From Streptomyces niveiscabiei (GTDB taxonomy: Bacteria > Actinomycetota > Actinomycetes > Streptomycetales > Streptomycetaceae), in the NCBI RefSeq assembly GCF_001419795.1, contig NZ_LIRL01000016.1, forward strand, positions 1-33,880: a stretch of 33,880 nucleotides of DNA, in the 5' to 3' direction. The position numbers and the translations under genes were made by a program. Shown one piece after another: positions 2,385 to 28,520 of this stretch; positions within the stretch are counted from its first letter, which is position 1, and each line of letters begins with the position of its first letter. The notes under the pieces are model-generated. The model worked only from the letters and a program-made list of their open reading frames with translations, had not been told where the DNA came from and did no database searches.

Positions 2385-2798
2385 GTGAGCACTCCTCCCG
2401 ACGCTCTCCCGCACATGGACGCCGTCCAGGCCGCGTTGGAAGCGATCGGCCTCACCGTGTACGTGGGCGGGGCACCTACCACGGCCGGGTGGTCGCCGCC
2501 GGACAAGTTCGCCGTTCTGTACCCGGACCCGGGCAAGGCCGTGAGGGCGTCGCTCGCCGACAACCGCGACGACTTCGACACCGTCATGCAGGTCACCTGC
2601 GTCGGAAGCGACGTCGTACGGGCCCTGTGGGTCGCCGCCCGGGTCCGCCGGGCCCTCGCCGCGCCCCTCACGGTAGAGGGCCGTATCTGCTGGCCCGCCG
2701 AGGACCTCGGCGGGCCGCCCGTACAGCGGGACGACGACGTCACACCGCCTGTCTTCTACGTGCCGGTCCAATACCGGCTCTGCTCAACTCCCGCCTGA
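2385..2798 (+). CDS. Tail terminator protein
   Basis: 137 residues, GTG start four bases after the previous stop; the Shine-Dalgarno is weak, so coupling to the upstream gene is likely. The layout is that of tail terminators of the lambda gpU or DUF3168 kind: an N-terminal helix (PHMDAVQAALEAIG), a strand with YVGGAP, a beta strand FAVLYPDPGK, a conserved VMQVTCVGSD strand, a helix carrying AARVRRALAAPL, and a final strand with PVQYRLC. Position between the gp10-like gene and the major tail gene fits. It would form the ring that caps the tail tube. The assignment is by pattern and gene order. Confidence 0.7.
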   Translation: MSTPPDALPHMDAVQAALEAIGLTVYVGGAPTTAGWSPPDKFAVLYPDPGKAVRASLADNRDDFDTVMQVTCVGSDVVRALWVAARVRRALAAPLTVEGRICWPAEDLGGPPVQRDDDVTPPVFYVPVQYRLCSTPA

Positions 2799-2808
2799 TG
2801 GAGGACCC

Positions 2809-3138
2809 ATGGCCACCCTGACCACCCAGGTCGTCGCCCTCGCCGGGCTGAACCCGGCTTACGCCTCGGCGGCGGCCGGCGGGGACAAGTGCGCGGTCGG
2901 CGACCGGAACTTCCTGCACGTGAAGAACGGTTCGGCGTCGTCGGTGACTGTGACGCTCACCGCGACGGCGTCCGTACGCGGGCAGGCCGTTGCGAACCTG
3001 ACGGTCGCGGTCCCGGCATCCGGGGAACGGATGATCGGCCCGCTCCAGCCGGACCTTTTCCAGTCCCAGACCGACGGCCTGTGCGCCATCGGCTACAGCG
3101 CGAGTGCCTCCGTCACCGTCGCGTCCCTGCGGATCTGA
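2809..3138 (+). CDS. Small beta-rich virion protein, possible second decoration-type protein
   Basis: 109 residues, ATG start with GGAGG six bases upstream. The protein is Val/Thr/Ser/Ala-rich with repeated strand-like segments and ends in SASASVTVASLRI. It has a motif FLHVKNGSASSVTV near residue 37 and ASGERMIGPLQP near residue 72. The pattern resembles the product of 281-646, which suggests a shared immunoglobulin-like or decoration fold used twice, once after the capsid gene and once before the tail-tube gene. I do not recognise a named family. It is the last gene before an intrinsic terminator, so it may be the end of the head transcription unit. Confidence 0.65.
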   Translation: MATLTTQVVALAGLNPAYASAAAGGDKCAVGDRNFLHVKNGSASSVTVTLTATASVRGQAVANLTVAVPASGERMIGPLQPDLFQSQTDGLCAIGYSASASVTVASLRI

Positions 3139-3159
3139 TCCGCTCCCCGCCCCTGCCCG

Positions 3160-3185
3160 CCCCGCGCCGACGGCCGGGGTTTTTT
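3160..3185 (+). terminator. Intrinsic terminator between head and tail genes
   Basis: CCCCG at 3160-3164 pairs with CGGGG at 3175-3179, with further pairing inside (GCC at 3166-3168 with GGC at 3172-3174) around the triloop GAC and a one-base bulge at 3165. Six T follow at 3180-3185. This is a textbook rho-independent terminator, unusual for standing in the middle of a virion gene block, 21 bases before the major tail gene. Confidence 0.8.
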
Positions 3186-3205
3186 GATGCCCTGGAGGGA
3201 CTCTC

Positions 3206-3685
3206 ATGGCTGACCTGATCAGCGACGGCAAGACCCGCGTGGCGTGGGCCAGCGCCATCGCGAACATCAACGCCCCTACCGTCGCCGAACTGACGGCGGC
3301 GGCCGACTACACCACACGCATCACCCCGGACGGCCTCAAACTCGACCCGTCCACAGCGGACGTCGACACGTCCTCGCTGGCGTCCACCTTCGACACGAAG
3401 ACGGTCGGCCGGGTGGGCTTCGACACCGAACTGACCTTCAAGCGCGGCGACAACCCGACCGACGACGCCCCGTTCACGACCCTCAAGTACGGGGTCTCCG
3501 GCTTCCTCGTCGTCCGCCGGGCAGTCGCCTACGCCACCGCGTGGACGGTTGGCCAGAAGGTGGAGGTCTACCCGATGGCCTGCGGCGAGCCGCAGAACAG
3601 CTCTCCGGCCGCGAACGAGGTCGCGAAGTTCGTGTCGCCGATGAAAGTCACGGACGCCCCGGCGACCGCCGCGACGGTGGCCTGA
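3206..3685 (+). CDS. Major tail tube protein
   Basis: 159 residues, ATG start with GGAGG upstream. It carries the usual features of an actinophage tail-tube subunit: a start reading GKTRVAWASAIANIN, the strand DYTTRITPDGLKL, a central segment with KTVGRVGFDTELTFKRGD, and a C-terminal strand VEVYPMACG. The length is at the short end for the family (usually 150-250). It lies right before the tail-assembly chaperone pair and the tape measure, exactly the order expected. It would polymerise around the tape measure to form the tube of a non-contractile tail. The stop overlaps the next start as TGATG. Confidence 0.85.
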   Translation: MADLISDGKTRVAWASAIANINAPTVAELTAAADYTTRITPDGLKLDPSTADVDTSSLASTFDTKTVGRVGFDTELTFKRGDNPTDDAPFTTLKYGVSGFLVVRRAVAYATAWTVGQKVEVYPMACGEPQNSSPAANEVAKFVSPMKVTDAPATAATVA

Positions 3686-4203
3686 TGTCCGACATCGAAG
3701 AAATCCTCAAGGCGGCCAAGCCCCGGCAGCGCACTGTGCAGGTGTGCGTCCGGGGCGATCTCGCGGGCGAGGTCGAGCAGCTCGCGGACGAGCTGTCGCG
3801 GGTGTCGGAGGACTGGGAACCGTCGAACATCGCCGAGGCCCATCCGGGCCGAGCTATCGCCGCGCGGCTGCGGGAGGCCCGGGAGCTGGCGAAGGCGGCG
3901 GAACAGCCGTTCACGCTGCGGTACATCGGCGACCGCGCGTACTCCGACCTGCTGGCCGCCCACCCGTCGGACAACGACAACGAGTTGTTCGACGACCGCA
4001 CGTTCCCACGCGCGCTGATCGCCGCAGCCTGCATCGACCCGGTGATGAGCGAGAAGCAGGCCGCCGCCCTGTTCGAGGTCATCAGCCAGGGCGAGATCAA
4101 GAAGCTGTTCGACGCTGCGTGGGACGTCCACCATGCGGCCGACGTCGCCCCTTTCTCGCTGGCCGCCTCCGCGCTCCTGGCGGGCCTTGGCGGCGGGAAG
4201 TAG
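3685..4203 (+). CDS. Tail assembly chaperone, short form (gpG-like)
   Basis: 172 residues from ATG 3685, overlapping the major tail stop. It is acidic and helical, with KPRQRTVQVCVRGDLAGEVE near the start, a long Glu/Leu-rich middle, and RTFPRALIAAACIDP about residue 110. The latter resembles the conserved FPRALIAAC...P segment of actinophage tail chaperones. In lambda-like phages this protein is made together with a longer form produced by a -1 ribosomal shift, and both guide tail-tube assembly on the tape measure. A fitting slippery site is present near its end (4149-4155) and the downstream frame continues to 4511. The family role is established knowledge; the pairing here is inferred. Confidence 0.85.
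   Translation: MSDIEEILKAAKPRQRTVQVCVRGDLAGEVEQLADELSRVSEDWEPSNIAEAHPGRAIAARLREARELAKAAEQPFTLRYIGDRAYSDLLAAHPSDNDNELFDDRTFPRALIAAACIDPVMSEKQAAALFEVISQGEIKKLFDAAWDVHHAADVAPFSLAASALLAGLGGGK
4149..4155 (+). promoter_or_regulatory. Predicted -1 ribosomal frameshift site CCCTTTC
   Basis: The heptamer C-CCT-TTC is in the zero frame of the chaperone gene and fits the X-XXY-YYZ rule exactly, with Pro and Phe tRNAs able to re-pair on CCC and TTT. Five bases later GGCCGCC (4161-4167) can pair with GGC-G-GGCC (4179-4186), giving a possible stimulatory stem. The -1 frame entered here runs open to 4511. The zero frame stops at 4201-4203. Confidence 0.7.
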
Positions 4204-13440: not shown

Positions 13441-13665
13441 ATGTCCAACGCAGCGAAGCGCACCGCGCGCACGATCATCCAGACCGCGCTCGGTATCGCG
13501 GCCGTCCTCCCCGCCGTCGTCAGCGCCTCCGGAATCCCCGCCGCGCTGCCGTGGGTGGCCGGTGCGCTCGCCGTCTCGGCCGGCGCGACCCGGGTCATGG
13601 CGCTGCCCGGCGTCCAGGCGCTCCTTCCGAACTGGCTGCGTACCGACGACGGAGAAACCAGATGA
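13441..13665 (+). CDS. Holin-like small membrane protein
   Basis: 74 residues, ATG three bases after the lysin stop. There are two hydrophobic segments, about residues 12-30 (IIQTALGIAAVLPAVVSA) and 36-55 (LPWVAGALAVSAGATRVMAL), joined by a short turn with Gly-Ile-Pro. The N-terminus is basic and the C-terminus is charged. The size, the two membrane spans and the place right after the lysin are those of a class II-like holin, which would form the lesion that lets the endolysin reach the wall. Many actinophages have a similar protein at this spot. Its stop overlaps the next start. Confidence 0.75.
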   Translation: MSNAAKRTARTIIQTALGIAAVLPAVVSASGIPAALPWVAGALAVSAGATRVMALPGVQALLPNWLRTDDGETR

Positions 13666-17913: not shown

Positions 17914-19602
17914 CTACTCGGGCGGGATGCCATTGTCAGTGACGTCGCCTACCGTGGGCGGTTCATCACCCACATCTGTTGGCTGCGACGTGTCGGGCCC
18001 CACTCCCGGGACAGCGACCGCGGGCGGGGCTTCGTTGTGCGGTCGGCGCGCTCGCGGCACTGCCGCCGCCGCGCGCTCTGTCACCTCGTCCTCGTACTCC
18101 TCGAACAGTTCCATGTACGTGTCCGACGTCAGCGTGATCGTCGAGTGGCGCAGCTTGACCTTGGCGTCGTGCAGATCACCCCCGCCCGCCTTCACGAGCG
18201 CCGCCGCGCCGTGGCGCAGGTCCCTGAGGTTGATCGGCGGCAAGCCTGCCTGAGTGGCGATGCGCCGGAAGCTCTTGCTGACGGTGTCTGGGTGGAGCCA
18301 TGCCCCATCCGGCTGCACGAACATCTTGCCGGTGTCGAGCCAGTCGTACGCCTTCTCGCCTCGCTCCCGCTTCTCCGCAGCCGCAGCGTTCCAGACGTCC
18401 CGCTCGGCGGCCTGGCGCTCGCGGTGCTCCAGCAACACCCGTACGGTGTTGCGGTCCACCTTGACCACGCCAGCGCTGCCCTCTGTCTTGGGGGCCGTCT
18501 CCATCGGCGTCCACCCGTCCGCCCCGACGACGATCTCCTTCGCCACCAGGATCTGCTTGCGCTCCGGGGAAAAGTCCGTCCACTCCTGGCCCACCCCTTC
18601 GCCGCGGCGAAGGCCGTGATGGGCGATCAGGTGGAAGAAGGCGTACAGCCTGTTCTCTTCCGCAGCATCAAGGAACGCACCCAGTTGCTCCGGAGTCCAG
18701 ACCATGACGGGGCCAGGAACTTCACCGGTCTCCCGCCACCGCTCGACGCGTTCTGCCGTCCACAGCAGACCCTTCGGCCGGGGAGCCGCGTCGAGTTCGA
18801 CGTGCGAGGCCGCGTTGAAGGTGATGAGCTGCTTTGCGATGGCCTTATTGAGGGCCATGCGGAGGGTGCGCCTGATCGCCTGCTTCGTGGCAGGGCCGGT
18901 GATCCGCCGGAAGGGCGGCATGGCGGCGAGGATCTCCCGCTCCCGCTCCAGCCGCTCCCGCTCGCGGGCCGGTGGGCGGCCGGGTTTCTTCCACCGGCAG
19001 CGCTGTACCTGCTCGCGGCGGGCGGCGTTCTCTGCGGCGATCACCTCGTTGCGGTCGTCGATCGCATTGAACATGTCCTCGACATGGCCGACCGTGAGCC
19101 GGTCGAGGCGCAGGTGCTCAAGCGCCGGCTTGAGGTGGACGCGAATGTGCGAGGCGTAGCCGCTGTTCGTGGTGGCCCGGGTCTTCTTGGACTCCATGAC
19201 TCGGTCGAGCCAGTCACCCACGAGGGTCTTGCCGTCGAGCGGTACGCCGACCCCGAGCTTGCGAGAGACCTCGGTCGGGTCGGGAATCGGACTGCGGCTC
19301 GCGCTCAGCTCGTCGAGCAAGTCACCGACGCGGCGCAGGCCGTCTTCGTCATCGTCATCGGGCAGGTCGAGGATCGCGCGGATGCGGTCGAGGTCCTTTT
19401 GCGCGTCCTTCAGTTCCACGTAGCCGGTGCGCTGGAAGCGCCGGCGCTTCCCCTCGGCGTCCACGGGGAGTTCTTGGCTGACGCGGTGCTTTCCGTGTGA
19501 ACGCTTAGACAACCGCGGGCACTTCTGCCCCAGTCGCTTCCCATCCGGTCCACGGCACTCACACCGCTTCGAGATGCCGCCAGCGCGGCGCGTCGCGGGC
19601 AT
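17914..19602 (-). CDS. int: Tyrosine integrase
   Basis: 562 residues, ATG at 19602 with AAGGAG five bases upstream. The N-terminus has a Cys-rich arm-binding segment (KRCECRGPDGKRLGQKCPRL). A core-binding region follows at about 125-285 (RVHLKPALEHLRLDRLT, then a basic insertion rich in Arg and Glu at 200-225). The catalytic domain has Arg332 (HGLRRGEG), Lys in the KTEGS turn, Arg463 (RDLRHGA), His486 (LRHSTITL) and Tyr496 (SDTYMEL). The first residue of the usual H-x-x-R motif is Arg460 rather than His; this variant also occurs in related Streptomyces integrases. The Pro/Asp-rich 45-residue tail is extra. It catalyses recombination between attP at 17653-17696 and tRNA-Lys in the host. It is directly next to the att core, as usual. 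Confidence 0.95.
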   Translation of the reverse strand: MPATRRAGGISKRCECRGPDGKRLGQKCPRLSKRSHGKHRVSQELPVDAEGKRRRFQRTGYVELKDAQKDLDRIRAILDLPDDDDEDGLRRVGDLLDELSASRSPIPDPTEVSRKLGVGVPLDGKTLVGDWLDRVMESKKTRATTNSGYASHIRVHLKPALEHLRLDRLTVGHVEDMFNAIDDRNEVIAAENAARREQVQRCRWKKPGRPPARERERLEREREILAAMPPFRRITGPATKQAIRRTLRMALNKAIAKQLITFNAASHVELDAAPRPKGLLWTAERVERWRETGEVPGPVMVWTPEQLGAFLDAAEENRLYAFFHLIAHHGLRRGEGVGQEWTDFSPERKQILVAKEIVVGADGWTPMETAPKTEGSAGVVKVDRNTVRVLLEHRERQAAERDVWNAAAAEKRERGEKAYDWLDTGKMFVQPDGAWLHPDTVSKSFRRIATQAGLPPINLRDLRHGAAALVKAGGGDLHDAKVKLRHSTITLTSDTYMELFEEYEDEVTERAAAAVPRARRPHNEAPPAVAVPGVGPDTSQPTDVGDEPPTVGDVTDNGIPPE

Positions 19603-21398: not shown

Positions 21399-21881
21399 AT
21401 GTCTGAGCTTCCCACGGCCGCTGAGCCGTCCGCCGCGCCCGAGACCGCCCGCGCGCTCGCCAGCATCGAGGCCGCCAAGTTGGTCGTCGACCAGGACATC
21501 GCCGAGTGCCTCGACGCCGTTGGCGATCTGATCCGGATCACCTCCTGTCCGTCCGGCGTGTTCGCGTGGGTCGTCGACCTCCTCAGCCGCGAGCAGTTGA
21601 GCGCCGTCTCCACCCACCACCGCATCACGGTGCACGAGTCGAGAGCCGACGCGAAGGACCAGTTGGACAGGACGGTCGTCATCTGGACCGCCGACGGGTC
21701 GGGGCTCGCCATCGTCCCGGCCGGTCAGCGTCCGGCCGACACGCTGCTGAACCTGCGCGAGGAGATCGCCCTGCGCGATCAGGAGGCGCAGCAGGCCCGC
21801 GACTTCCAGGAGTCCGTGGCCGCCGGGCACGTCGAGGACCTCGACGCCTGGCACGCGCGCACCACCCAGGCGCCGCAGTGA
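21399..21881 (+). CDS. Early hypothetical protein
   Basis: 160 residues, ATG start with GAGG upstream. The N-terminus is Ala/Pro/Glu-rich; the middle has a helix (VDQDIAECLDAVGDLIRI), a Trp/Val strand (GVFAWVVDLLSREQ) and TVVIWTADGSGLAIVPAGQ; the end is a charged helix (LREEIALRDQEAQQARDFQE). There is no known motif, membrane span or cysteine pair. It lies in the coupled early operon just before the primase, with its stop overlapping the next start as GTGA. It may be a replication accessory factor, but nothing in the sequence proves it. Confidence 0.6.
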   Translation: MSELPTAAEPSAAPETARALASIEAAKLVVDQDIAECLDAVGDLIRITSCPSGVFAWVVDLLSREQLSAVSTHHRITVHESRADAKDQLDRTVVIWTADGSGLAIVPAGQRPADTLLNLREEIALRDQEAQQARDFQESVAAGHVEDLDAWHARTTQAPQ

Positions 21882-22108
21882 CGACGGCCAGCGCCTCGGC
21901 CCGGGACACCCCGGGCCGGGCGCCCTCCCGTCAGCAGATCGTCGGCCTGCTGGTCGTCAACACCCAGGACATCAGCGCTCGGTACGAGTGCTACCGCCCA
22001 GGCTGCCCGATGCCTCACGAGACCCCACTCAACACCTCCACCACCAAGGCGTTCATCGGCGGGATCAAGGCCCGGCACTTGAGCCAGTACCACGGGGAGA
22101 CCCCTTGA
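21878..22108 (+). CDS. Small C2H2-like zinc-binding protein
   Basis: 76 residues from GTG 21878, overlapping the previous stop. The C-terminal half reads YECYRPGCPMPHETPLNTST, then KARHLSQYHG: two Cys (C-x4-C) and two or three His spaced about as in a C2H2 finger. It could bind DNA or RNA. The first 30 residues are Arg/Ser/Pro-rich. It stands directly before the primase-polymerase gene with overlapping stop and TTG start, so the two proteins are made together. A link to replication is suggested by that coupling only. Confidence 0.6.
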   Translation: MTTASASARDTPGRAPSRQQIVGLLVVNTQDISARYECYRPGCPMPHETPLNTSTTKAFIGGIKARHLSQYHGETP

Positions 22109-24948
22109 CCGACCCACAGTCCCCAGACCTCCGCGCAGCCGCCCGCGAGCTGCACGACGCTGGCCTGTGCGTCCTGCCCATCAAGGCCGACGGCAGCAAG
22201 GCGCCGTCCGTCCGCTCCTGGACCCCGTACAAGCTGGCCCGATCCACCCCCGCCGAGCACGACTCCTGGTTCGGCGGCGACCGCCCGGCGGGCATCGCCG
22301 TCGTCTACGGCGCCGTGTCCGGCAACGTCGAGATGATCGAGTTCGAGGGCCTCGCAATCCGCGAAGGACTGCTCGACAAGGTCACCGAGATCATGGAGGC
22401 TTCCGGACTCGCCGAGCCGTGGGCCGCGATCCTCGGCGGCTGGGTGACCGAGTCCCCGTCCGGCGGCCGGCACTTCCGCGTACGGGTGGAAGGCGCCGAC
22501 GTTCCCGGGAACACGAAGCTGGCCAGCCGCCTCGCCCGAGAGGACGAGTACACCGACGAGGAGCGGCAACGGCTCCGGGAGAAGCCGACCTCGCGCATCG
22601 TCCGCGTCCTGATTGAGACCCGGGGCGAGGGCGGCTATGGGCTCGTCGAGCCGTCCGGCGGCACGGTCCACGCTTCCGGCCATCCGTACGTCCGCCTCGC
22701 TGGAGGCCCGGCGAGCGTGCCCGTTCTCGACGGCGACACCATGACGTCGATCCGGGACGTCTGCCGGATGCTGGACAGCCTGCCCCGGCCCGAGCCCGCG
22801 AAGACGGCACCCAAACCGTCTGCTCCCCGACCCGACGGAACTCTGCGCCCGGGTGACGACTTCGAGCTCCGCGCGTCCTGGGAGGACATCCTTCGCGGGA
22901 CCTTCCGGCCCCTCAGCACGCGCGGCAGTGAGACCTACTGGGGGTGGGCCGATGGCGTCGGTGGGGTGAAGGCCACCACGGGCAAGGACGAGCACGACCG
23001 CCTGTTCGTGTTCGCGACCGGCTCGAACTTCACCCCCGAGGTGCCGTACAGCAAGTTCGGCGCGTACGCCCTGCTGGAGCACAACGGAGACCACAAGGCC
23101 GCCGCGCGGGCCCTCGCCCTCAAGGGGTACGGCAGCCGCCACCTTGCCGCAGTTGGGGCGTCGTCCTCCGCCTCGACACCTCCTCCTTCGGCCACCGATA
23201 CGCCCTCCGAGCCGGAAGTGGACGCGGTCGCCAAGGATCTGGACGACCCAGATCCCGAAGGCTTCGGCTACGACACCGTGTTCGGGCTCCCTGCTGCCGT
23301 CCGTACGCCGTACGGCTACCGGGTCACCGGCTTGGGCGTCGAGGTACTCAGCGCCAGCGGCGAGAACTGGCAGAGGGTCACCTTCGCCCCGTTGGCGGTG
23401 ACCGCGACGTTCGAGGACCCCGAAGGGGACCAGTACGTCGAGCTGTCGTGGATCGACCGCAGCCTCGGCCGCCCGCGGCGGATCTCCCGCATCGTGTCCC
23501 GCGAGACCGCAAAGCGTGGCCGGAAGCTGATCGAGGCACTGGGCTCGGCCGGTCTGCCCGCGGTCGAGGGCGACGCACGCGCCGTCGAACGGTGGTTGGC
23601 CGAGTTCGAGGCCCGCAACGTCGGGCGTATTCCGTCCGAGCAACTGGCGCGCTGGCTCGGCTGGCAGGACGACGGCACGTTCGTCTCCTCTCCCGAGGAC
23701 GGCATCAAGGTCGACGTGCCGTTCGAGGAGCAGCGGGGCCCGGCCCGCGCGCACGCCAGGAAAGGGACCCTCGACGGCTGGAAGGAGACCGTCGCGCAGT
23801 TGTCGGGATTCCCGGTGCCGCGGGTCGCCGTCGCAGCGGCGCTCGCCGCTCCCCTGCTCAAGCCGCTCGGGCTGAACTCCTTCACCCTGGACATCTCCAG
23901 CCGGTCCACCAAGGGCAAGACGACCGCGCTCCAGTGCGCGTTGTCGGTGTGGGCCGATCCGTCCGAGCACGCCTCCGCCATGAACAACTGGCGTACCACG
24001 CTGTACGCGATCGAGAAGCGGCTGAACCTGGTGCGCGGGCTGGTCACAGTCTTCGACGAGACGATGGCTGTCACCGACGACACCCTCATCGACGAGGTGC
24101 TCTACCAACTCCCGATGAACCACGGGAAGGCAAGGTCAGGCGGGGCATTCGGGAACATGCTGCCCTGGGAGACCATCCTCCTGTCCTCCGGGGAGCGGCC
24201 CGCTCTCTCCTTCACGACCAGCCAGGGCGCGGCGGCCCGCATCCTGGGCACGACGATCGCCCCGTTCGGCGACGGCGGCGGCCCGGCAGCGACAGCGGCC
24301 CGAGAGGGCGTACTGGCCCACCACGGCCACGCCGGGCCCGAGTTCGTCCGGTACATCCTCAGCGGCCTCGCCCAGCCGAACGGCCGCGAGAAGCTCAAGG
24401 AACACCACCGCACCCTGGTTGACGAGTTCCGCGGCAGTGGCGACATGACGAACCGGCGCGCGCCGATGGTCGCCGCCCTGGTCCTCGCCGAGACACTGGC
24501 GTGCCGTACGGGACTCCTGCCGTACGAGCCGCTGCCGTACGACGTCTGGCGAGGGCTGTTCACCGCCCACAACCCGACGGACAACAGGCCCGAGATGGCG
24601 CTGGATGTCCTGCGGGAGTACGTCGCTGGGCACGCGCACGAGCTGTACACCGCGACGCGGGCAGCCTTGGGCGAGCGTCCGCCGTACGCGGGGTGGCTCG
24701 GTGTCCTCTCGACGAAGGACGGCGTCACCGAGGTGGCGCTGTTGCCCGAGCGCGTCCGCAAGGTCCTGGCGGACGCGGGCTACTCGCTCGACGCCGTGAT
24801 CGGCAGTTGGGTCGACGCCGAGTACGTGAAGACCCTCAAGAGCCAGCGTCCGGCTCATCTGCTGCCGCGCCGGTTCGACGGAGCCCGCGCGAAGTGCCTC
24901 GCCTTCACGCCCGCCGGTATCGGCTACGGCGACGACGAGGCGGCATGA
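22105..24948 (+). CDS. Bifunctional DNA primase-polymerase with DUF927 helicase domain
   Basis: 947 residues from TTG 22105 (GGGGAG six bases upstream, overlapping the previous stop). Residues 8-230 are a primase-polymerase domain: LRAAARELHDAGLCVLPIKA, the acidic pair Glu79-x-Glu81 (NVEMIEFEG) in the place of the usual DxD, and His123 (GGRHFRVR). Glu in place of Asp is frequent in Streptomyces members. A short Pro-rich linker leads to a zinc-free middle part, then a DUF927 helicase-like ATPase at 385-780 with Walker A S599-RSTKGKT and Walker B Asp651-Glu652 (TVFDET). The C-terminus (870-947) may be a winged helix. This enzyme would start and drive DNA replication of the element and is the kind used by AICEs and some actinophages. 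The iteron array follows immediately. Confidence 0.85.
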   Translation: MTDPQSPDLRAAARELHDAGLCVLPIKADGSKAPSVRSWTPYKLARSTPAEHDSWFGGDRPAGIAVVYGAVSGNVEMIEFEGLAIREGLLDKVTEIMEASGLAEPWAAILGGWVTESPSGGRHFRVRVEGADVPGNTKLASRLAREDEYTDEERQRLREKPTSRIVRVLIETRGEGGYGLVEPSGGTVHASGHPYVRLAGGPASVPVLDGDTMTSIRDVCRMLDSLPRPEPAKTAPKPSAPRPDGTLRPGDDFELRASWEDILRGTFRPLSTRGSETYWGWADGVGGVKATTGKDEHDRLFVFATGSNFTPEVPYSKFGAYALLEHNGDHKAAARALALKGYGSRHLAAVGASSSASTPPPSATDTPSEPEVDAVAKDLDDPDPEGFGYDTVFGLPAAVRTPYGYRVTGLGVEVLSASGENWQRVTFAPLAVTATFEDPEGDQYVELSWIDRSLGRPRRISRIVSRETAKRGRKLIEALGSAGLPAVEGDARAVERWLAEFEARNVGRIPSEQLARWLGWQDDGTFVSSPEDGIKVDVPFEEQRGPARAHARKGTLDGWKETVAQLSGFPVPRVAVAAALAAPLLKPLGLNSFTLDISSRSTKGKTTALQCALSVWADPSEHASAMNNWRTTLYAIEKRLNLVRGLVTVFDETMAVTDDTLIDEVLYQLPMNHGKARSGGAFGNMLPWETILLSSGERPALSFTTSQGAAARILGTTIAPFGDGGGPAATAAREGVLAHHGHAGPEFVRYILSGLAQPNGREKLKEHHRTLVDEFRGSGDMTNRRAPMVAALVLAETLACRTGLLPYEPLPYDVWRGLFTAHNPTDNRPEMALDVLREYVAGHAHELYTATRAALGERPPYAGWLGVLSTKDGVTEVALLPERVRKVLADAGYSLDAVIGSWVDAEYVKTLKSQRPAHLLPRRFDGARAKCLAFTPAGIGYGDDEAA

Positions 24949-24960
24949 GGGCCGTGATGC

Positions 24961-25239
24961 GGGTGGTACGCACGAGGTGCGTACCACCCCGCCACCCGGG
25001 TTTCCGCAGGTCAATGACGTGCGCGAGGCCGTTTGAAGGCCGGTACGCAGTCGCCCGGAAATGGCACCCCTCAGGCGTGGGCGCGTGTGCGCGTGCGGGC
25101 GTGCGTGTGCGCACACATCGAGCCCTGTGTGTTTCTGCGTACCTGCGTACCACTCCTTCTAGAGAGAGACATAAGACCAGCTCAGAGGTGCTTTTCCCCC
25201 GGTACGCAGCCGGTACGCACCCGGTACGCAGTGCGTACC
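24961..25239. other. Candidate replication origin: nine GGTACGCA iterons
   Basis: The octamer GGTACGCA occurs on the plus strand at 24965, 25042, 25201, 25212 and 25223, and on the minus strand at 24978, 25136, 25144 and 25232. Three copies (25201-25230) repeat every 11 bp, two (25136-25151) are directly joined. The first two form a perfect 13-bp-arm dyad at 24961-24989 (loop GAG). A stretch of alternating purine-pyrimidine (25081-25117) and a less G+C-rich run (25159-25181, agagagagacataagacc) lie between. No gene is visible in 24949-25274. Iterons right after a primase-helicase gene point to an origin. A regulator binding array is the alternative. Confidence 0.7.
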
Positions 25240-25274
25240 GCTCTCTCCTCCACTCCACCGAATCGAGGTGCCCC

Positions 25275-26882
25275 ATGTCCTTCGCTCCCCGCCCCTACCA
25301 GGTCGACGCCATCGCGGCGCTCCGCCAGGGCTGGGCCGCCGGCAAGACGCGACTGGCCGTCGTCCTTCCCACCGGCGCCGGAAAGACCGTCGTGTTCTCC
25401 CACCTGGCCCACCAGATGCTCGACAGCCTCAACGGACGCCGCGCGCTGGTGATCGCTCACAGGGAAGAGCTGATCGAGCAGGCCGCTTCCAAGCTGCTGG
25501 CGGTCGACTCGATGCTGCGGGTCGGCATCGTCAAGGCCCAGCGCGATGACCACCACGACGCCGACGTGATCGTGGCCAGCGTCCAGACCCTCGCCGTTCC
25601 TCGCCGTCGCGAGGCGATCCGGGACATCGGCCTGATCATCGTGGACGAGTGCCACCATGCCGCCGCCCCCACCTACATGGAGGTGCTGAGGCACTTCGGT
25701 GCCTGGGACGGCGTGCCGACGGCTGGCTTCACCGCGACTCTGACGCGGACTGACGGCGGCCTGGCCGAGGTGTGGGAGGACGTCGTCTTCCGCCTCGACA
25801 TCCTCGACATGATCAGCGACGGCTACCTCTGCGACGTCCGCGGCAAGAGGATCACCGTCGACACTCTCGATCTCAGCAAGGTTCGAACGCGCGGGGGCGA
25901 CCTGGTCGAGGGGCAACTGGGTAAGGCCCTGGAGGACTCGGGCGCCCTGGAGGCGATCGCCAAGGCGTACGTCGACCACGCCGCCGACCGCCCCGGTGTC
26001 GTCTTCACACCGACCGTGGCCACCGCTCAGCAGGCCGCCACCGCACTCCGTACGGTCGGCATCGAGGCGGCCCCGGTGTGGGGGGACATGGGCCGCGACG
26101 AACGCCGCGCCGCCCTCGCCCGGTATGAGGCGGGTGAGGTCCAGGTGCTCACCAACTGCATGGTCTTGACGGAGGGGTTCGACGCGCCGCACACCAGCTG
26201 CGTTGTTGTCGCGCGCCCGACCCAGAGCCCCGGCCTGTACGTGCAGATGGTCGGCCGCGGACTCCGCCCGGCGCCCGGAAAGACGGACGCCCTGCTGCTC
26301 GACGTCATGGGCGCCGCGTCCCGCCACAAGCTCGCGAGCATGGTCGACCTCACCGCCCGGGAGATCGGCGAGGCCGAAGAGGGCAGGAGCCTCCGGGAGG
26401 TTGCCGAGAAGCACGTCGCGGCCGAGAAGCGGAAGGCGCTCGCCGCGCGGGTCGAGGCCGAGGAGATCAACCTCTTCGGTTCCTCCGAGATCCGCTGGCT
26501 GAGGACCTCTCAGGGGATCTGGTTCATCCGGCTCACGTCGGCGCAGGTGCTGTTCCTGGTCAGGGACCCGGGGACCCGGATGTACCGGATGCGTCGCTGG
26601 ACCCAGGCGCACGGCGCGCACGCCCCCAAGGACGACGTCGCTCGTCCCCTGCCGGAGGCACTGACGTGGCTGGAGCAGCAGGCCAAGGCCCTGGCGCCCG
26701 GCACGTTCGTCGCCCGCCAGGCCCGCTGGCGATCGGGCGCCCCCAGCTCGAAGGCGCTCGGCCTGTGCCGACGGCTCGGCATCAAGGTGCCGAGCGGGAG
26801 CACGGCGGGCGACGTCGCCGACCTGATCGACCGCGACCGCGTGGACACGATCCTCGGCTCGCTGTTCCTTCCCGCCGCATGA
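25275..26882 (+). CDS. SF2 DNA helicase (DEAD/ResIII type)
   Basis: 535 residues from ATG 25275; the open frame extends upstream into the iteron region, which was rejected. Motif I is P32-TGAGKT, motif Ia VIAHREELIEQ, motif II Asp124-ECH (IIVDECHHAAAP), motif III TAGFTATLTR, and motifs V-VI include NCMVLTEGFDAPHTS and QMVGRGLRPAPGKTDALLLD. The C-terminal 130 residues are specific to this phage group (WTQAHGAHAPKDDV, then LGLCRRLGIKVPSG). The protein probably opens DNA for the primase or works in repair and recombination during replication. It lies just after the iteron array in the replication block and is followed by a hairpin. Confidence is high for the enzyme class. Confidence 0.9.
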   Translation: MSFAPRPYQVDAIAALRQGWAAGKTRLAVVLPTGAGKTVVFSHLAHQMLDSLNGRRALVIAHREELIEQAASKLLAVDSMLRVGIVKAQRDDHHDADVIVASVQTLAVPRRREAIRDIGLIIVDECHHAAAPTYMEVLRHFGAWDGVPTAGFTATLTRTDGGLAEVWEDVVFRLDILDMISDGYLCDVRGKRITVDTLDLSKVRTRGGDLVEGQLGKALEDSGALEAIAKAYVDHAADRPGVVFTPTVATAQQAATALRTVGIEAAPVWGDMGRDERRAALARYEAGEVQVLTNCMVLTEGFDAPHTSCVVVARPTQSPGLYVQMVGRGLRPAPGKTDALLLDVMGAASRHKLASMVDLTAREIGEAEEGRSLREVAEKHVAAEKRKALAARVEAEEINLFGSSEIRWLRTSQGIWFIRLTSAQVLFLVRDPGTRMYRMRRWTQAHGAHAPKDDVARPLPEALTWLEQQAKALAPGTFVARQARWRSGAPSSKALGLCRRLGIKVPSGSTAGDVADLIDRDRVDTILGSLFLPAA

Positions 26883-28012: not shown

Positions 28013-28191
28013 GGCCGACCCGCGCCCGCTGCGCCAGCGGCCACTTCATCCCCACCACCGAGCAACCCGGCCAACTCTGCCACTGCGTACGCAGATCCCG
28101 ACCACGAGACCACGCCGACCTGTGGGGCCAGGGCCGCTACATCACCCACCGCCGCATGACCACCATCCGACTCACCGGGAGCTACCTGTGA
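28009..28191 (+). CDS. Small Cys/His protein
   Basis: 60 residues from ATG 28009, overlapping the previous stop (ATGA), with its own stop overlapping the next GTG (GTGA). It has CASGHFIPTTEQPGQLCHCV, i.e. C-x3-H...C-x-C, which could bind zinc, then a basic tail (RSRPRDHADLWGQGRYITHR). The double overlap shows it is part of a translationally coupled string of small genes, so I treat it as real. Function unknown. Confidence 0.55.
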   Translation: MRPTRARCASGHFIPTTEQPGQLCHCVRRSRPRDHADLWGQGRYITHRRMTTIRLTGSYL

Positions 28192-28520
28192 CCCTCACCG
28201 AACGCGTCCTGCGCTGGCTCTACCTCGTGGCCGGCGCCTTCACCGCCTACTGCGCCACCGTGAGCGCCGACCATGGCGCCCCCTGGTACGCAGCAGGACT
28301 CTTCATCACCACTGGCCTGATGGTCACCGCCGCTGTCCGCGACTACCTCGACGCCGACGAGCGCCGCGTCGCGGCCGTACGAGCCGAGCGCGCCGCGCGG
28401 TTGAAGGCCACGGAGGACGAGCGCCGGATGCGCGAGGCCGCTGAGGCGTTCGCAGCCCACCGCGGCGTGCTCGCCCTCGACGTCCACCAGCTCGCTGCTC
28501 GGAAGGACGACACTGCGTGA
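28188..28520 (+). CDS. Two-span membrane protein with coiled coil
   Basis: 110 residues from GTG 28188, which overlaps the previous stop. Two hydrophobic spans are at about residues 9-26 (WLYLVAGAFTAYCATVSA) and 32-49 (PWYAAGLFITTGLMVTAA). A long charged helix follows (DERRVAAVRAERAARLKATE), probably a cytoplasmic coiled coil, and the end is less structured. The layout recalls small membrane proteins of Streptomyces plasmids. Its partner is not known. The stop overlaps the next start, GTGA. Confidence 0.6.
   Translation: MTLTERVLRWLYLVAGAFTAYCATVSADHGAPWYAAGLFITTGLMVTAAVRDYLDADERRVAAVRAERAARLKATEDERRMREAAEAFAAHRGVLALDVHQLAARKDDTA

Follow-up and report, generated by a model that had tools for sequence, protein, structure and literature searches.

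A short-repeat array behind a Streptomyces phage primase-helicase gene as a probable replication origin inherited with the C-terminal half of its initiator

The window, the whole stretch of DNA analysed here, is 33,880 nucleotides long and makes up an entire contig (C525) of a 9.5-Mb draft genome of Streptomyces niveiscabiei. It encodes a tape measure protein, a minor tail protein, an endolysin, an integrase, regulators, a primase and a helicase. The window carries part of a tailed temperate phage; its tail-related proteins (tape measure and minor tail) and its endolysin indicate such a phage rather than an actinomycete ICE (AICE). No terminase, portal or major capsid protein was found among the 20 window ORFs scanned against PHROGs. 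The integrase gene (17914-19602) lies mid-contig with phage-like genes on either side, a position that agrees better with a circular or phage-order form than with an integrated end. The contig itself was rejected as a closed circle, as it has no exact terminal overlap of 15 to 200 bp.

A 326-bp gap separates the stop of the primase gene (24948) from the start of a helicase gene (25275). The features of the two genes and of the gap are as follows.

22108-24948, forward strand: primase-helicase initiator, a PrimPol part (aa about 1-345) fused to a DUF927/Cch-type half (aa about 411-946)
24589-24906, forward strand: predicted winged-helix-like DNA-binding region of the initiator (AlphaFold model residues 418-523)
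24961-24989, no strand: dyad with exact 13-bp arms, holding iterons 1 and 2
24965-24972, forward strand: iteron 1, exact GGTACGCA
24978-24985, reverse strand: iteron 2, exact GGTACGCA
25007-25013, forward strand: constant motif copy 1, CAGGTCA; with the next three bases, two mismatches to CAGSTCAGAG
25042-25049, forward strand: iteron 3, exact GGTACGCA
25081-25116, no strand: alternating purine-pyrimidine tract, 33 of 35 steps, a value not exceeded elsewhere in the window
25125-25174, no strand: AT-rich segment (52% AT), candidate unwinding site, overlapping iterons 4 and 5
25136-25143, reverse strand: iteron 4, exact GGTACGCA
25144-25151, reverse strand: iteron 5, exact GGTACGCA
25178-25187, forward strand: constant motif copy 2, exact CAGCTCAGAG by sequence match
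25201-25208, forward strand: iteron 6, first of the 11-bp triplet, exact GGTACGCA
25212-25219, forward strand: iteron 7, exact GGTACGCA
25223-25230, forward strand: iteron 8, exact GGTACGCA
25232-25239, reverse strand: iteron 9, exact GGTACGCA
25275-26882, forward strand: DEAD/DEAH (SF2) helicase gene, outside the swapped cassette; Pfam ResIII, DEAD and Helicase_C, phrog_16 DNA helicase

A preliminary description of this DNA had read the gap as an iteron origin, citing nine exact octamers, three of them spaced by 11 bp, and a dyad with 13-bp arms. All of these are present: the nine copies lie on both strands between 24965 and 25239, the triplet starts at 25201, 25212 and 25223, and the dyad arms (24961-24973 and 24977-24989) match exactly. 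The first octamer follows the primase stop by 16 bp, and the last precedes the DEAD helicase gene by 35 bp. The chance level given there, one octamer per 30 kb per strand, needs correction to one per 65.5 kb per strand at even base use, or one per 33 kb over both strands. Counting both strands, the window holds 11 copies of GGTACGCA, nine of them in the array, against a mean of 0.69 and a maximum of 3 in dinucleotide-preserving shuffles of the whole window. The two stray copies each lie inside a listed ORF, one at 13637-13644 on the reverse strand (ORF 13441-13665) and one at 28285-28292 on the forward strand (ORF 28122-28520). The AT-rich segment, which comes after the alternating tract, is matched in AT content by only 0.17% of the 50-mers of the window. 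GC skew does not switch at the array, a point against the origin reading.

The primase-helicase matches PF09250 (8e-9) and PF06048 (2e-34) in Pfam. A profile of its C-terminal half matches PDB entries 8tch (5e-16), titled as the SaPIBov1 replication initiation protein, and 5dgk (1.7e-15), titled as SCCmec Cch. Both entries also top a structure search with this half, poor model notwithstanding: the mean pLDDT is only 48.1, and of the 12 ten-residue blocks from 411 to 530, seven score 63-80 and five 46-54. Since the model is too poor for detail, kinship of the C-terminal half with SaPIbov1 Rep and Cch is argued from sequence. HTH_56, the helix-turn-helix family of Cch, exceeds its 26.2-bit cut-off in one relative (L107, 36.2 bits), falls below it in L005 (21.2) and in the plasmid pFP4 (22.6), and does not appear among the matches of the window protein at E 0.001. 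Family scans of the small zinc-like protein encoded at 21878-22108 gave no match.

The nine named-genome loci found with the window primase comprise eight from Streptomyces and one from Frankia. As the preliminary description had suggested looking for, the octamer recurs at the same place in relatives, 3' of their primase genes. Usable loci numbered 119, after leaving out those without a match, without an ORF end or with less than 300 bp past the stop codon; collapsing identical first 300 bp of the gap gave 72 distinct elements, the window copy included. These are 28 of class A, which carry the DUF927-type half of the window at 25-100% identity, 38 of class B, whose C-terminal half is unrelated and D5/SaPI5-like, and 6 others.

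A short-repeat array lies directly 3' of the primase-helicase gene in all 66 class A and B elements, window included. In each, some 7-mer occurs at least six times within the first 350 bp past the stop, and none of 200 shuffles per element reached the repeat count of its gap. Of 14,195 control windows taken from other parts of these loci, only 98 reached six copies. When 20 distinct gaps (the window and 19 others) are aligned, the flanks vary while the octamers keep their order, their orientation and most of their spacings. Base changes have removed one or two copies in some loci, several loci carry a 12-bp insert mid-gap, and one has an extra 11-bp unit. Both dyad octamers are exact in 20 of the 21 close class A elements, window included; in L002 the second has one base changed. 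Across these 21 elements the octamer occurs 174 times inside the gap (7-10 copies each) and four times in 259,900 bp outside it. The preliminary description had named a transcription regulator's site, with copies at other promoters, as part of what would overturn an origin. In the stretches examined, so few outside copies argue against a regulator site spread over promoters, and a regulator's operator was rejected as the main role of the array.

The repeat itself varies among relatives. Close class A elements share GGTACGCA, and distant ones carry GTTACGCA with a similarly spaced triplet (L107), GGGGTACGC (L009, Frankia), CGGGACCC (L123), AGTTACCC (pFP4) and GGGGGAAC (a plasmid of S. virginiae). 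Class B repeats are GCGGGG, GCAGGG or near variants. Among elements of neither class, arrays are clear in L103 (GCAGTGAC) and L104 (CAGTGCC), and an AGTGACA array is present in the Arthrobacter phage L126. No clear array was found 3' of the primase gene in the Arthrobacter phages L124 and L125 (7 and 10 of 200 shuffles as high) or in L105 (5 of 200), and three helicase homologues of 26-30% identity (L140, L162, L163) show no evident array within 420 bp. Arrays directly 3' of a DUF927 gene occur also in the Thermoanaerobacterium phage THSA-485A (GGTAACCGA, L127 6097-6500) and, as TTGTGACAG-like repeats, in a Geobacillus plasmid (L131 5178-6600). The arrangement therefore reaches beyond actinobacteria.

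Two further features, a constant motif and the alternating tract, recur in many gaps, not in all. CAG[GC]TCAGAG is exact on the coding strand in 27 of the 72 gaps, as against 0.2% of shuffled gaps, and has one mismatch in 11 more (shuffles, 2.4%). The remaining 34 gaps have two or three mismatches, which is the chance level, and include most class B gaps of the GCGGGGA type. On the opposite strand the motif is exact in one gap. A 36-bp alternating tract exceeds shuffles (p 0.05 or less) in 57 of the 72 gaps and mostly lies 115-160 bp past the stop codon. It is not above shuffles in 15, namely all six elements of neither class and nine A or B loci (Frankia L009, L118, L123, L127, L131, L078, L082, L083 and L122). 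Other factors may therefore act in these gaps, as the motif is kept in many of them whatever their class. The PrimPol part was considered as its reader, a candidacy weakened by L005 and L123, which have the exact motif, and L107, which has the CAGGTCA core: in a scan that covered the initiator gene only, the initiators of these three have no PF09250 match.

By comparison of the loci, the array follows the C-terminal half of the primase, not the DEAD helicase. Between class A and class B loci, PrimPol halves are up to 78.5% identical and DEAD helicases up to 96.8%, with different arrays. With repeat types assigned from six patterns picked by the analyst, none of 217 pairs with DEAD helicases at least 80% identical and different C-terminal classes share a repeat type, and all of 35 class A pairs with DEAD helicases at most 65% identical do; the pairs in these counts are not independent, and every one of the 35 involves L004 or L118. 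Trees were made for the 56 loci with a DEAD helicase over 400 aa, 54 of which have the PrimPol half. The helicase tree has at least eight class changes, five of them forced by supported branches. The PrimPol tree has only two, one forced, which suggests that the primase gene mostly moves as one piece. The class B locus L069 and the class A locus L016 become 94.7% identical in DNA no more than 5 bp from the helicase start, immediately past the arrays, and on the left side detectable identity stops within the PrimPol part. These limits indicate an exchanged cassette of C-terminal half and array, with some of the PrimPol part. Such tracking of the C-terminal half is as expected if the primase-helicase is the initiator, and the comparison lends good support to the iteron origin first proposed. 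The association could be partly linkage, since array and half are adjacent.

The array could instead be an operator through which a phage protein, the primase-helicase or some other, controls the helicase operon, with replication starting elsewhere. Its position directly upstream of the helicase gene would suit this role, and iteron arrays can double as operators. We nevertheless consider it unlikely. An operator would not need nine copies in 275 bp plus a constant motif, an AT-rich segment and an alternating tract, copies outside the gap are few, and the array changes with the initiator rather than with the gene downstream. No sigma-70-like promoter was found in 24700-25500, although such scans perform poorly for Streptomyces.

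Class B arrays differ from one another, among other things, in one base, GCGGGG versus GCAGGG. Most copies share the same base in most loci. With each locus labelled by its majority copy (several arrays are mixed, such as L064 with nine A and six G), 1 of 453 alignment columns splits the 12 A loci from the 26 G loci, 38 of 38: K stands in every G locus, and C or R in every A locus. This column is residue 472 of the class B model (pLDDT 77.9), between the last two strands, and sits at the predicted wing of the winged helix. The next best seven columns, with 0.70-0.85 of the full information, span aa 905-942 of L054; one runner-up (0.82) falls at model residue 445, in the helix that precedes the wing. 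Among 1000 random labelings built from clades matched in size, none produced a column that splits the labels. On the class B tree six A/G switches are needed, two of them forced by supported branches, and a sign test on the two forced switch pairs is not significant (p 0.5). The prediction was fixed before 12 further loci were read, of which four were duplicates and eight new. Four new loci have arrays (L138, L156, L158 and L161); the rest are the distant L140, L162 and L163 and the broken gene of L164. L138 is class A at 45% and carries GGTACGCA six times. The other three, class B loci with the wing motif, all obey the rule at that base; the repeats of L158 and L161 differ elsewhere. The residue-base rule is a candidate, drawn from class B and not from the class A of the window.

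This rule bears on another explanation, in which array and C-terminal half are merely hitchhiking neighbours and the array is read by, for example, a partition or packaging protein. The two do adjoin, and the constant motif leaves room for other factors. Against this, the DEAD helicase gene is also near the array and does not co-segregate with it, the repeat base goes with one wing residue within class B, and about 9 kb separate the array from the annotated terminase in a closed relative (L132). We regard hitchhiking as very unlikely. That the primase mRNA ends in an RNA element or terminator formed by the dyad and repeats is rejected as extremely improbable: a perfect 13-bp-arm dyad begins 12 bp past the stop codon and four helix pairs are changed on both sides (2 of 500 shuffles as high), a change seen at two inner flank pairs, but the hairpin control is mixed, with the percentage paired not above shuffles (123 of 500), most sequences leave two of the four covarying pairs unpaired, 8 of 13 dyad pairs never vary, seven of nine octamers lie outside the dyad, and there is neither an Rfam match nor a terminator-like site.

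An initiator that reads repeats beside its own gene is of a known kind, represented by SaPI, Cch2 and pWTY27, here in a fused, modular form. SaPI Rep and SCCmec Cch/Cch2 resemble the window in having a DUF927-type helicase, related by sequence. SaPI Rep is described as reading iterons directly downstream of its gene, and the C-terminal domain of Cch2 (400-538) as binding its repeat region (PMC7581432). These systems are reported to have a C-terminal DNA-binding domain and short repeats directly downstream of the helicase gene (PMC7581432). The repeats of the window are placed in the same way, and its initiator has a candidate counterpart of the domain, predicted at low confidence. The window differs in its PrimPol fused in front, its Streptomyces host, its GC-rich repeats and its tailed phage. 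The basic replication locus of the Streptomyces theta plasmid pWTY27 is reported to consist of two genes, one for a primase/polymerase, and a 300-bp region with inverted and direct repeats of 7-8 bp, which RepA binds (PMC3583192). The PrimPol-type gene with an adjacent repeat region of about 300 bp is like the window; the genes of pWTY27 are separate, however, and its repeat is GTGGGAAC (PMC3583192). A probe search with this repeat gave no match. PrimPol modules of actinomycete ICEs have been described in a paper whose main text does not use the word "iteron" (PMC3218068).

A further relative is the Streptomyces plasmid-phage pFP4 (NC_017833). It has a PrimPol gene and a DUF927 helicase with a 43% identical half, followed directly downstream by an array (AGTTACCC). 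It also has an alternating tract and a motif, CTGGTCAGAG, that departs from the consensus at one base. In contrast to the window, PrimPol and helicase are two genes and the repeat is different. Class B relatives resemble SaPI5 PriRep1, NrS-1 and D5 helicases in modelled structure, at sequence identities of about 6-12%, and are not of the window's own type. The class B model aligns with the SaPI5 primase-helicase 7ola at a VIA Z of 14.2 (rmsd 8.2 over 369 residues), D5-type helicases are tied with 7ola, and NrS-1 leads in Foldseek. In phage P4, the alpha protein is a primase-helicase fusion whose C-terminus reads short iterons. Its primase and helicase types are unrelated to those of the window, and its origin includes a second, distant region (crr).

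We read the gap from 24949 to 25274 as a replication origin recognized by the C-terminus of the upstream primase-helicase, with a probability of about 0.88. The nine octamers very probably mark the start of phage DNA copying, and the most likely reader of the array is the primase-helicase through its winged helix. In this mechanism, the C-terminal winged helix would bind the GGTACGCA iterons and load the DUF927 helicase as hexamers beside the AT-rich segment. The fused PrimPol domain would lay the first primers, and the downstream SF2 helicase would help the fork. We infer binding, AT-rich melting, hexamer loading, priming, the SF2 helicase role and the direction of replication.

A broader reading, which we offer tentatively and hold to be possible rather than probable, is that these are plug-and-play origins with two keys, a variable iteron and a constant CAG[GC]TCAGAG motif with its alternating tract. 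The iteron would be read through the recognition helix and wing, single residues setting single bases; in class B, K would go with G, and C or R with A. The constant motif and tract, at similar places, would be read by a host factor or act as a strand-opening device. Such a role is suggested because they recur across unrelated helicase classes and in three loci whose initiator genes show no detectable PrimPol domain. Were the two-key reading true, a cassette swap would change the compatibility of coinfecting phages and resident prophages and leave the other replication machinery untouched. Origin exchange may also help to explain how one cell could host related phages and phage-plasmids together. 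Many phages keep a nearly identical helicase and a similar primase domain and exchange the origin-reading half with its origin, a natural experiment in which swapped loci provide pairs on which origin specificity can be tested directly. In one open-access library, with queries not worded for them, neither the cassette swap nor the residue-base rule was found described. The constant motif (CAGGTCAGAG), a second element that is still unexplained, could lead to a replication factor of the host, and arrays with their initiators are possible new replicons for Streptomyces vectors.

Elements of this arrangement exist as circles, which does not imply that their replication depends on the array. One closed circular record of 34.5 kb, which has genes for terminase, portal, capsid and tail, contains a class B array with its genes. 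Nowhere on it outside the array does any 7-mer reach six copies in 350 bp, and no other initiator is annotated in a gene table that its makers call incomplete. The DUF927 arrangement is found on pFP4 and on a 16.3-kb closed circle.

Some single loci deserve mention. The class B primase-helicase of L164 (G815:C1:8708000-8714500) is broken by stops, apparently in a decayed prophage. The contig of L002 (NZ_JAIUKE010000092.1) is listed at 33,880 bp, like the window, with a primase only 81% identical, either a coincidence or a listing oddity. The S. virginiae plasmid NZ_CP108092 (L133) holds a second cluster at 3451-3950, with up to 11 copies of AGCCGAA in 350 bp; it overlaps an annotated DUF2637 gene (2431-4032), away from the origin-like array.
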